From a virus, in IMG/VR virus record IMGVR_UViG_3300009182_000170, positions 1 through 36,420 of that record: a stretch of 36,420 nt of DNA. One strand, written 5' to 3'. Under the pieces are notes generated by a model. That model did not search any database. It was not told the origin of the DNA and saw only the letters and a program-made list of their open reading frames with translations. Each line of letters begins with the position of its first letter. Within the stretch, counting starts at the first letter, position 1. Below, one piece after another: positions 12,787-24,403 of this stretch. A program made the position numbers and the translations under genes.

Positions 12787-13025
12787 TCCTCGTCATCCTC
12801 AAATTCAATCTCAATCGTTGGCTCAAACTCACCATCTAAATAAGCCTCAACCATCCCTTTAATGGCAAACTGATTGCCAATAGCCGCATGAAAATACTCC
12901 GTCCCACCATTCACCTCCCTAGAAACCATGATAATGCCATGATCAAAATGCTCTCCAGCTATCGCCCTCAACTGCCCCATCACAAATTTAGCCTCGTCGT
13001 CTTCTTGGTGGGTAGTTACAGACAT
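12780..13025 (-). CDS. Small acidic phage protein
   Basis: This 81-aa protein begins MSVTTHQEDDEAKFVMGQLR. It contains HFDHGIIMVSREVNGGTEYFHAAIG, which resembles a small phage family with the pattern '[EH]HFD...I.VS....GGT....G.GN.[FY]A..G' that I have seen near virion or lysis genes; its function is not known. The C-terminus is very acidic (EIEFEDDEDN). It lies between the glycosyltransferase-like gene and the connector-like gene on the same strand, 24 bp after the former. Confidence 0.65.
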   Translation of the reverse strand: MSVTTHQEDDEAKFVMGQLRAIAGEHFDHGIIMVSREVNGGTEYFHAAIGNQFAIKGMVEAYLDGEFEPTIEIEFEDDEDN

Positions 13026-13049
13026 ACCATCCTATTAAAACCACCATCC

Positions 13050-13733
13050 CTACTTTGCAAGCATCTTCTCTATCTCTGCCCTATGCTCCCCTATCCCTCC
13101 CCAACTCCAATACTGCTTGCAATACACAGGCAAATCACTCGGATGCAACCAAGCAAACTCCTTCCTATGGAACTTGTATGCCCACTGACCCAAAGTATTG
13201 AACTCACTGAACTCATGCGTTGGTTGTTTATCCAACCATTCCCACAGCTTGCAACCATGCTTCTCCTCCATCCAAATCCTAAAAGCCTTGTAAATCCACC
13301 GAGGGTAGAGAATCGGCAAACGCCTCATATACTCGCCATCACACCTCCACCCCAACGATCTAGCGGAAATCTCAAACCAAGGGCTTTCCACGCCCTCCTC
13401 ACGCAAAATAACAGGCCTCCCATCCAAAAAGAAATCCTCTGGCCTAGTCTCCTTGTAAAAAATGCAATCACTATCCACATGAAGCACATAATCCCCCCTG
13501 CAAAACTCGTCGGCATGGAGCTTGGTCACTTGCTGATCCATGTAGCCAGTCAACTTCTGCTCCACCAAATGCACAGTCTCACTCCCCACAGAAGGCATTT
13601 CTCCAATATCCGTGGCAGGAATCGCCACATGGACTCCACCAAATCCCTCACAATACTTCTCAACAGACTTCAAGCTATTCTTCAACCACTCAAAGTCATT
13701 GGCATAACTTCTGTAAAATATATCGACTTGCAT
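13050..13733 (-). CDS. Glycosyltransferase-like protein (DUF6492-type)
   Basis: This protein has 227 aa from the ATG at 13733. The core starts directly with MQVDIFYRSY, a Rossmann-like first strand. Longer versions from ATG 13745 or GTG 13751 are possible but add only a few non-conserved residues. The motif HVDSDCIF (85-92) is a textbook DxD-type metal/nucleotide-sugar site after a hydrophobic strand (YVLHV), and WGGIGEHR lies near the end. Length and layout fit GT-A glycosyltransferases annotated as DUF6492 in phages and capsule loci. It lies back-to-back with the plus-strand QGSCR gene, less than 80 bp away, suggesting a shared glycan role; donor and acceptor are unknown. Confidence 0.7.
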   Translation of the reverse strand: MQVDIFYRSYANDFEWLKNSLKSVEKYCEGFGGVHVAIPATDIGEMPSVGSETVHLVEQKLTGYMDQQVTKLHADEFCRGDYVLHVDSDCIFYKETRPEDFFLDGRPVILREEGVESPWFEISARSLGWRCDGEYMRRLPILYPRWIYKAFRIWMEEKHGCKLWEWLDKQPTHEFSEFNTLGQWAYKFHRKEFAWLHPSDLPVYCKQYWSWGGIGEHRAEIEKMLAK

Positions 13734-13810
13734 GGCGTGGAACATATCCACCCAAAAAGAAGAAGTAAAGAGTGTTTACCAATCACTCAATCCATGATAA
13801 CAATCACGCA

Positions 13811-14617
13811 ATGATCTCCACTCACGACATAAAGATGCAAAAACACTGCGGCTATCGCATAGGCCCACAAAACGGCATCCCGGTTCTCATCCAAGGCTCA
13901 TGCCGAGCAGTCCCATACCTAAACTACTTTAGTCTCCTAGAATCAAACCCATATTGTGTCTATTTTATAGACCCATTTAACTTCCATTGGGATGATAATG
14001 AAAAGCTCGTCAACCTAGACGAATCCCTGTCCCTCCAAGAAAACAACCAATCCATCCTCTCTCTCCTTCCAACAATCAAAATATTCATCCACGAACACTA
14101 CCAATCATTCGGAATGTTCAACACCTCCCTGTCTTCAGACAAGCACATCTACCAATTCGGCCTATCCCCAGAACTCAACATATCCATCCCAAATTTCAAC
14201 GACCACTTCATCCTCGTTAAAGACTTCCTCTGCCACGATTGGTTCAAGAAAGAACTAGAAGAACCATCCCTCTCCCCGGCTTGCCTAGCAAGAATCTACA
14301 CAGAAGGTGATGAGGCTAAAGCCAAATTCATGGCATCATCCCTCCTCTCCTCATTCCCAGAAATCTCCACCCACTTCCACGACAACTTCCTATCCACACG
14401 CCTCTTCTGCTCCCATAACCACATCTCCAAAAACTACAGCCTCTTCATCTGGGAACTCCTAGCAGAAAAATTCCTGTCCATCCCAAAAGAAAAAGCCATC
14501 ACAAATCAAATCCAATCCCTGTCCATCTACGAAAATAGTCAAACCCCACTCACAAATTACGATCTTCTCCTCCGATCCTACAACTGGAACGAACCAGTAG
14601 TTGATCTCACCACTTGA
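13811..14617 (+). CDS. QGSCR-motif protein, possible WcbI-like glycan-modifying enzyme
   Basis: This protein has 268 aa from ATG 13811; GTG 13772 and ATG 13835 are in-frame alternatives. I chose 13811 because its leader (AATCACGCAATG) fits the A/C-rich start context used elsewhere. The key motif near the N-terminus is VLIQGSCRAVPYLNYF, followed by CVYFIDPFNFHW, IKIFIHEHYQSFGMFN and IYQFG. The 'h-h-x-G-[SN]-C-[RQ]' start after a strand resembles WcbI/SGNH-like polysaccharide biosynthesis proteins; that is my inference from motif shape. Similar QGSCR proteins occur beside glycosyltransferases in phages. The gene is extremely C-rich and G-poor on its coding strand. Confidence 0.65.
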   Translation: MISTHDIKMQKHCGYRIGPQNGIPVLIQGSCRAVPYLNYFSLLESNPYCVYFIDPFNFHWDDNEKLVNLDESLSLQENNQSILSLLPTIKIFIHEHYQSFGMFNTSLSSDKHIYQFGLSPELNISIPNFNDHFILVKDFLCHDWFKKELEEPSLSPACLARIYTEGDEAKAKFMASSLLSSFPEISTHFHDNFLSTRLFCSHNHISKNYSLFIWELLAEKFLSIPKEKAITNQIQSLSIYENSQTPLTNYDLLLRSYNWNEPVVDLTT

Positions 14618-23464: not shown

Positions 23465-24199
23465 TTATTTGTTTACTGATTCTGAAAGAAGTCTAAATGC
23501 TGTTGCCGCCACAATTGGAACTTGTCCATTTCCAATGGCTTTAGAGCGGCCCACCCAATTGTCCATCCCATTAGCCATTCCATCCATTCTGGGTTGATTA
23601 ACTTTCCAGAAAGATGTTGGTATTTTGGTAAAGAAGGAAGTTCTTCTAAATTCACCATAGCATTCTTTCTTATATAAAATTTCTTCTGTCTGGATACAGC
23701 GGCTCTTGGCGTTGGCAAAGATCCAGATGCGTTCTCTTCTGTGAGGTGCGCCGCACATTCCAGCGGATATAACTCCCCACCTTGCGTCATACCCCATCTC
23801 GGAAAGATCTCCAAGGACTCGGTTGAGTCCTCGAATAGCAAGCCTTGGTGAGTTCTCCACGAATGCGTATTGAGGTCGTACTTCGCCAATGATTCTGGCC
23901 ATTTCTCTCCAGAGTCCGCTTCGCTCTCCTTGCAGTCCTGCACCTCTCCATGCACAGCTAATGTCTTGGCAAGGGAACCCTCCGCAAACGACATCGACTT
24001 TTCCCCTCCAAGGGGTTCCGTCAAAGGTGCAGACATCATCCCAGATTGGGAACTTTGGCAAGATGCCGTCTCGTTGCCGTTGGAGCAAGACTCGTCGGCA
24101 ATAGGGTTCAATTTCCACAGCACAAACTGTGGTGTGTCCGAGGAGCATTCCTCCCAAGATCCCCCCTCCTGCTCCTGCAAATAAATGTAGCTCATTCAT
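23465..24199 (-). CDS. C5-cytosine DNA methyltransferase
   Basis: This 244-aa protein contains the canonical C5-MTase motifs: motif I LFAGAGG (6-12, S-adenosylmethionine binding), motif IV GGFPCQD (73-79, catalytic Cys77), motif VI ENSP (115-118), motif VIII RRERIWI (154-160) and motif X near AIGNGQVP (about 224-231). It transfers methyl to cytosine C5, protecting phage DNA from host restriction or affecting packaging. The target-recognition region between motifs VIII and X is short, typical of compact phage enzymes. No cognate restriction enzyme is nearby. A GGAGG sequence precedes the start by 8 bases. A second frame is open along the whole gene (see separate entry). Confidence 0.93.
   Translation of the reverse strand: MNELHLFAGAGGGILGGMLLGHTTVCAVEIEPYCRRVLLQRQRDGILPKFPIWDDVCTFDGTPWRGKVDVVCGGFPCQDISCAWRGAGLQGERSGLWREMARIIGEVRPQYAFVENSPRLAIRGLNRVLGDLSEMGYDARWGVISAGMCGAPHRRERIWIFANAKSRCIQTEEILYKKECYGEFRRTSFFTKIPTSFWKVNQPRMDGMANGMDNWVGRSKAIGNGQVPIVAATAFRLLSESVNK
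23473..24195 (-). other. Second open frame over the methyltransferase gene (240 codons)
   Basis: In the +1 frame of the cytosine methyltransferase an uninterrupted frame starts at ATG 24195, four bases inside the gene, and ends 8 bases before the gene's own stop. Its product would contain WRTHQGLLFEDS, FPRWGMTQGGELYPL, GSLPTPRA and INPEWMEWLMGWTIGWAAL. I know this series (S-W-R-T, P-R-[SW]-G-M, L-P-T-P, N-P-x-W-V-E-W-L-M-G) from independently annotated phage proteins. Back-translation shows that WMEWLMGWTIGW is the shifted reading of the MTase segment before AIGNGQVP. So either both frames are used or the known family derives from this shifted frame. Expression is unproven. Confidence 0.35.
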
Positions 24200-24403
24200 T
24201 TAATCCTCCATTGAATCTTCAACTTCTTCAACATCAACTTCCTCTCCGCAGTTTGGGCACTCGCAAGGACAAACCTCTGCTCCCGACCCCTGTTCTGCGT
24301 CTTCAAACCTTCCTGACATGAATCGGTCTGGAGTGGCTGGAGTAAAATCCACCTCAAACTCGTGTTCGCACTCCTCGTTTTTACAAGTATAGTCTGTTTT
24401 CAT
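24200..24403 (-). CDS. Small zinc-ribbon protein
   Basis: This protein has 67 aa from ATG 24403 (MKTDYTCKNEECEHEFEVDF), which overlaps the upstream stop as ATGA. It has two cysteine knuckles, CKNEEC near the N-terminus and CPCECPNCG in the second half, that could bind one zinc, and a very acidic tail (EEVDVEEVEDSMED). Zinc-ribbon plus acidic tail resembles small regulators or DNA mimics, but no family is recognised. The gene ends directly before the methyltransferase start (TAAATG). Confidence 0.55.
   Translation of the reverse strand: MKTDYTCKNEECEHEFEVDFTPATPDRFMSGRFEDAEQGSGAEVCPCECPNCGEEVDVEEVEDSMED

Follow-up and report, generated by a model that had tools for sequence, protein, structure and literature searches.

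An overprinted second frame as the probable source of motif IX in a widespread group of phage C5-cytosine methyltransferases

Introduction

Natural two-polypeptide C5-cytosine methyltransferases (MTases) include M.AquI, whose second chain holds motifs IX and X, and M.EcoHK31I (YGGCCR), whose small-chain gene lies within that of the large chain, in a different frame. The large chain of M.EcoHK31I carries motifs I-VIII and X and was assigned the predicted target-recognition domain (TRD), with motif IX on the small chain (PMC3404938). In the single-chain enzymes M.HhaI and M.HaeIII, the TRD and motif IX share one chain and frame. We analyzed an MTase gene in a 36 kb virus record (IMG/VR IMGVR_UViG_3300009182_000170, positions 1 to 36,420, this whole stretch of 36,420 nucleotides being the window below), inside which a second reading frame is open almost from start to stop. 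We put at about 0.84 the probability that this one stretch of DNA encodes a two-chain C5-cytosine MTase, with an overprinted chain (beta) giving motif IX in trans to the catalytic chain (alpha).

Likened by described layout, alpha and beta divide the motifs as M.EcoHK31I does, alpha having the I-VIII plus X composition, without IX, of its large chain. M.EcoHK31I belongs to a restriction-modification system, whereas the pair described here is often found in phages and overlaps almost start to stop. M.AquI is likewise naturally split into two polypeptides, but its second chain takes motif X, which here stays on alpha, and the single-chain enzymes differ from the present pair in keeping TRD and motif IX together. 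The ShiLan insertion likewise puts a second frame within a phage DNA methylase gene, as a hidden HNH endonuclease in the methylase of Mycobacterium smegmatis phages (PMC11855218). In contrast to beta, it is a mobile insert that brings its own HNH endonuclease; it has no relation to motif IX and is no part of the enzyme. Should the ShiLan methylase belong to the present family, the insert would lie within a gene that already has an overlap. Our relatives include Cheoctovirus mycobacteriophages (L098; L numbers designate our loci). The open-access literature searched yielded no account of such an overlap in phage MTases. The two-chain precedent is known to specialists; what was not found described there is how widespread the arrangement is, that it runs from start to stop and that it forms a single clade.

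The locus and its two frames

The features of the locus, all on the minus strand of the window, are as follows.

23465..24199, minus strand: alpha chain, C5-cytosine MTase frame (244 amino acids (aa), ATG start; motifs I-VIII and X, without motif IX)
23473..24195, minus strand: putative beta chain, overprinted +1-frame open reading frame (ORF) (240 aa, ATG start; from the ORF list, the phrog_1008 match and the stop statistics)
24205..24209, minus strand: Shine-Dalgarno-like GGAGG upstream of both start codons (spacing 5 nt to the alpha ATG, 9 nt to the beta ATG; from sequence)
24193..24199, minus strand: double start ATGAATG (alpha ATG 24199-24197, beta ATG 24195-24193)
23551..23598, minus strand: predicted beta motif IX block, INPEWMEWLMGWTIGW (beta residues 200-215)
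23516..23539, minus strand: alpha motif X, AIGNGQVP (alpha residues 221-228; from sequence and alignment)

Alpha matches Pfam PF00145 (DNA_methylase) with an E value of 1.3e-29, only profile positions 3-169 of 324 being aligned, and PHROG family phrog_363 with an E value of 3e-62. Motifs I, IV (PCQ), VI (ENx) and VIII are present by Pfam match and alignment, and motif X (GN.xVP) is present as AIGNGQVP, conserved in the alignment of relatives, with 11 nt between it and the beta motif IX block upstream. Beta is almost as long as alpha, with its conserved portion in the C-terminal 140 aa. No Pfam or NCBIfam family matched it; its PHROG match is phrog_1008 (E 8e-18), and its C-terminal part matches phrog_26627 and phrog_35493, the same families as are matched by the second frames of relatives. 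The alpha family phrog_363 and the beta family phrog_1008 are separate PHROG entries, each labelled 'DNA methyltransferase', with their frame relation unstated in the entries returned.

A first-pass annotation of this DNA had called attention to a +1 frame open for 240 codons, from 4 nt inside the gene to 8 nt short of its end, and had recognized in it a known phage protein family by SWRT, FPRWGM, GSLPTP and INPEWMEWLMGW. The ORF list agrees with this extent, all four motifs were found in the second frame, and the family can now be named as phrog_1008, with phrog_26627 and phrog_35493 for the C-terminal part. The NPEWMEWLMGW block does lie opposite the MTase segment preceding AIGNGQVP, as had been remarked. 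The first-pass annotation proposed no role for the second protein.

Selection on the second frame

The primary sample comprised 80 viral loci retrieved by the MTase frame only and five retrieved by the second frame. For the stop count we used 42 relatives less than 70% identical, of which 39 came from the MTase-frame search and three (L082, L084, L085) from the second-frame search, a difference in origin that does not matter at the size of the effect. The interiors of their +1 frames hold 3 stops, against 175 expected from synonymous shuffles that keep protein and codon usage. Taken by itself, the window gene reaches P = 0.005 for its 240 open codons, 20,000 synonymous codon shuffles having given 3.8 stops on average. 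Nearly all genes of the primary sample have the second frame open end to end, with stops only at the extreme ends, against 2-9 expected in each gene; interior second-frame stops do occur in some, including L005, L029, L072 and L078.

Control MTases were taken from a PF00145 search of 14 host genomes. Ordinary C5-MTases of these genomes gave observed/expected ratios of second-frame stops of 0.84-1.20, against 0-0.54 for nearly all truncated-type MTases from the Pfam search (alignment end about 165-216). Among the latter, L282 (2 stops, 2.5 expected) and L293 (ratio 0.69, with a 233-codon open gap) are mild cases; L290-L292 have a partial Pfam score yet are ordinary MTases. Seventeen other window genes, also used as a control, had 307 stops with 304 expected.

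A more stringent test sets the same codon before different next bases. Valine and leucine codons ended in A or G in 3 of 774 instances where this would make a +1 stop, against 368 of 1588 otherwise, an effect not seen in the ordinary C5-MTases. Next-base counts taken 'inside the alt ORF' are circular, and L099-L258, retrieved by the beta profile, are conditioned on an open second frame; both were kept out of significance. Changes synonymous in the MTase that would make a beta stop occurred once in about 3,300 opportunities, other synonymous changes at 0.13-0.20 per site. Between proteins that are 60-70% identical, fourfold-degenerate sites agree at 54-60%, where 36-38% is expected, and beta dNN/dNS is 0.20-0.31, a value not calibrated on a control and drawn from non-independent pairs.

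The second frame is under selection beyond codon usage, and both frames are selected. True overprinting, as opposed to chance openness, is confirmed at the level of sequence. It was one of two readings offered by the first-pass annotation, and it is borne out by the stop depletion, the fourfold sites and the near-absence of beta-stopping synonymous changes; a normal stop frequency in homologous MTases together with a lack of third-position constraint had been named as the outcome that would refute it, and 3 stops were found where 175 were expected.

Motif IX

The most conserved block of the second frame is LNPxWVEWLMGxPxGWT. An in-chain motif IX is absent from alpha, whose Pfam alignment stops at position 169 of 324, against 319-322 in three relatives: L211, from an alphaproteobacterial metagenome-assembled genome, and L259 and L260, from two Candidatus Megaera plasmids. 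In these three, with Pfam coverage of 2-319 to 3-322 of 324, the block belongs to the MTase frame and immediately precedes motif X (in L211 as ...GLNPDWVEWLMGFPIGWTEGGSRKERLCSLGNAVVP), and the second frame has gained stops around IX. The two plasmid genes are:

1498-2523 of L259: MTase with motif IX in frame
1498-2520 of L260: MTase with motif IX in frame

We read the second-frame block (L)NPxWVEWLMGxPxGWT as motif IX, which, judged by sequence, places this motif on the second polypeptide. No standalone beta genes were found, all 172 of 172 beta-like ORFs of L087-L258 overlapping alpha in the same relative frame (the scan pattern covered the motif IX region only).

A structure model of L211 has a confident MTase core with the same catalytic fold as M.HhaI and M.HaeIII (164 columns aligned to HhaI, root-mean-square deviation 1.6 Å). 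Its residues 171-261, the variable region of alpha, are unstructured, and the alpha frame there is therefore unlike a recognition domain. Target recognition is probably a role of beta, as a candidate function.

Several results weigh against beta as the supplier of motif IX. Alignment of beta to canonical MTases by hhalign does put the block on motif IX, in favor of that role, but the match is weak (P 0.086). The model of beta is poor (predicted local distance difference test, pLDDT, 60; predicted template modelling score, pTM, 0.24) except for the motif IX helix and the next helix, and it gave no fold match, hence no target-recognition fold was seen in it; such a model may be how a chain that folds on its partner looks, and proves nothing. 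Finally, in L211, L259 and L260 the PTP-rich central beta frame is open for about 150-180 codons despite motif IX being in alpha, and beta may therefore do more than supply IX. A profile search with beta against the PDB returned chance matches only, to apolipoprotein E.

Start of the second protein

The double start ATGAATG is conserved among relatives, and in the window a beta-frame TGA directly precedes the beta ATG. Of the alpha asparagine codons that overlie the beta start, 38 of 38 are AAT; asparagine elsewhere is encoded by 151 AAT and 176 AAC (46% AAT). Beta begins with ATG in 75 of 76 genes, and in the 14 of 76 where alpha starts with GTG or TTG the beta start is still ATG.

The second frame of more distant relatives does not open before MTase codon 10-100, with stops ahead of that point (for example in L111, L150, L160 and L253). 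Such genes with a shorter beta have stops in the N-terminal MTase codons and none thereafter, an absence that is partly conditioned because these loci came from the second-frame search. An internal ATG that has a good Shine-Dalgarno sequence is common among them, as in L245 (aaaggaggatttttATG).

Distribution and tree

Profile matches to the second frame were found in at least 525 viral and 259 bacterial or archaeal genome stretches. The genomes bearing beta belong to Proteobacteria, Actinobacteria, Myxococcales, Geothrix, Chloroflexi and Methanophagales archaea, among others, and M. smegmatis phages carry the second frame too. In a tree of 100 MTases (a quick tree with long branches) the overlapped and IX-in-frame types form one clade with support 99, with ordinary enzymes outside. 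The IX-in-frame type nests within the overlapped clade and therefore looks like a return to one chain. By these alignments and this tree, alpha lacks motif IX and beta has it, the block of the single-frame relatives stands at the canonical site ahead of motif X, and the overlapped alphas all fall in one clade.

Variant loci were also seen. A very divergent MTase of an Enterobacter plasmid (L263 1108-2037, HFFAGIGGWPLAL type) has a +1 ORF with WPTPTASD and LNPALPRWLMGFPISW, and by these sequences is taken as a second branch of the same two-frame arrangement. In a short relative (L084 1997-2416) the MTase frame has 140 aa and the second frame 135 aa, both having lost the middle together. In L139, L233, L246 and L256 the second frame continues into the coding region downstream, 350-800 codons without a stop, which we take for read-through into the downstream gene, fusion being unproven. 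Intragenic frame swaps trade alpha and beta segments between frames in L151, L247, L250 and L255, and reflect either decay to a pseudogene or sequencing error.

Proposed mechanism

We infer translation of beta, its binding to alpha, its part in target recognition and a single-chain origin, in the following scheme. Frame 0 would give alpha, with motifs I-VIII including the catalytic PCQ, plus motif X. Frame +1 would give beta by its own translation from the ATG 4 nt downstream, from a ribosome-binding site common with alpha. Beta, with motif IX and probably the target-recognition segment, would dock on alpha to complete the small DNA-binding domain, and the alpha-beta enzyme would methylate phage DNA (or host DNA) at a specific site. 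The arrangement may have originated by paired frameshifts that put the recognition and IX segment of a single-chain enzyme into frame +1. Motif IX given in trans by beta would account for the shortness of alpha, for the finding of beta only together with alpha here and for the retention of both frames.

Conserved full-length same-strand overlaps over large distances are rare in prokaryotes and are normally forbidden by gene callers. We give even odds to the broader proposal that the whole clade has a single origin and that its members, in phages, bacteria and archaea alike, are obligate two-chain enzymes, their IX and target-recognition chain being overprinted on the catalytic chain and born by frameshifts that put the small domain of a single-chain enzyme into frame +1. 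This would place the pair among the most widespread and deeply conserved overprinted pairs of prokaryotes.

Alternative explanations

Were the MTase alone real, the openness and similarity of the second frame would come from conserved codon choice and MTase motifs. Some second-frame motifs do overlie conserved MTase motifs (SWRT over VENSP), and among GenBank phages second-frame identity, at about 34%, is lower than that of the MTase, at about 53%. Such a shadow frame nevertheless fails the shuffles, which predict 175 interior stops where 3 were found; stop depletion is missing from ordinary C5-MTases and from the other window genes, the next-base test speaks against it, and the same genes do have stops upstream of short beta ORFs. 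We reject it on the shuffles, the canonical-MTase controls and the next-base test, and consider it hardly credible. The other reading of the first-pass annotation, a widely misannotated shadow frame, holds in part for misannotation, with either frame alone annotated in records and the second-frame family labelled 'DNA methyltransferase' in PHROGs, and falls for the shadow frame by the stop tests.

A programmed +1 frameshift, giving motifs I-VIII in frame 0 and then one chain with IX and no separate second start, would suit the order in the DNA of I-VIII (frame 0) and then IX (frame +1), and L247 and L211 are natural frame-fused variants. Motif X, however, is back in frame 0 and would require two shifts. 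The second frame also keeps a conserved start codon of its own, with an internal Shine-Dalgarno sequence in many of the relatives. Openness over motifs I-V would be of no use to a late shift, yet in genes of the window type the second frame is open there too; we think a frameshift improbable. To the same degree we doubt that beta is real with some other role, for instance as a regulator, an anti-restriction protein or a nuclease partner, its likeness to IX being coincidental. Its lack of a structural match and the open central segment where IX sits in alpha would fit such a role, but alpha lacks motif IX at the very place where beta has it, the same block occurs in the alpha frame of three relatives at the canonical place, and experiments on M.EcoHK31I give a precedent for a small second chain bearing motif IX. 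A two-chain enzyme with motif IX supplied by beta would be a case of an overlap whose two frames both serve one enzyme. Short phage C5-MTases assayed as lone proteins would be expected to be inactive, and the culturable phages with the second frame, including M. smegmatis phages, make translation, assembly and target choice directly testable.

Annotation in databases and other observations

One chain is left unannotated in every record inspected. Only beta is annotated in Pseudomonas phage phPA-G (L087) and in P. aeruginosa plasmid L262, and only the C-terminus of beta in Mwe-JY08 (L095); in most other records only alpha is annotated. In Mycobacterium phage Llama (L295 735-1494) the annotation splits the MTase region into a pair of short 'DNA methylase' genes, gp74 and gp75.

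Neighbors of the MTase gene in the window include genes for a DnaB-like helicase and a phage-type exonuclease. Two long ORFs lack a PHROG match, 12888-13814 (plus strand, 308 aa) and 13772-14617 (plus strand, 281 aa); unlike these, the other long window genes are on the minus strand.
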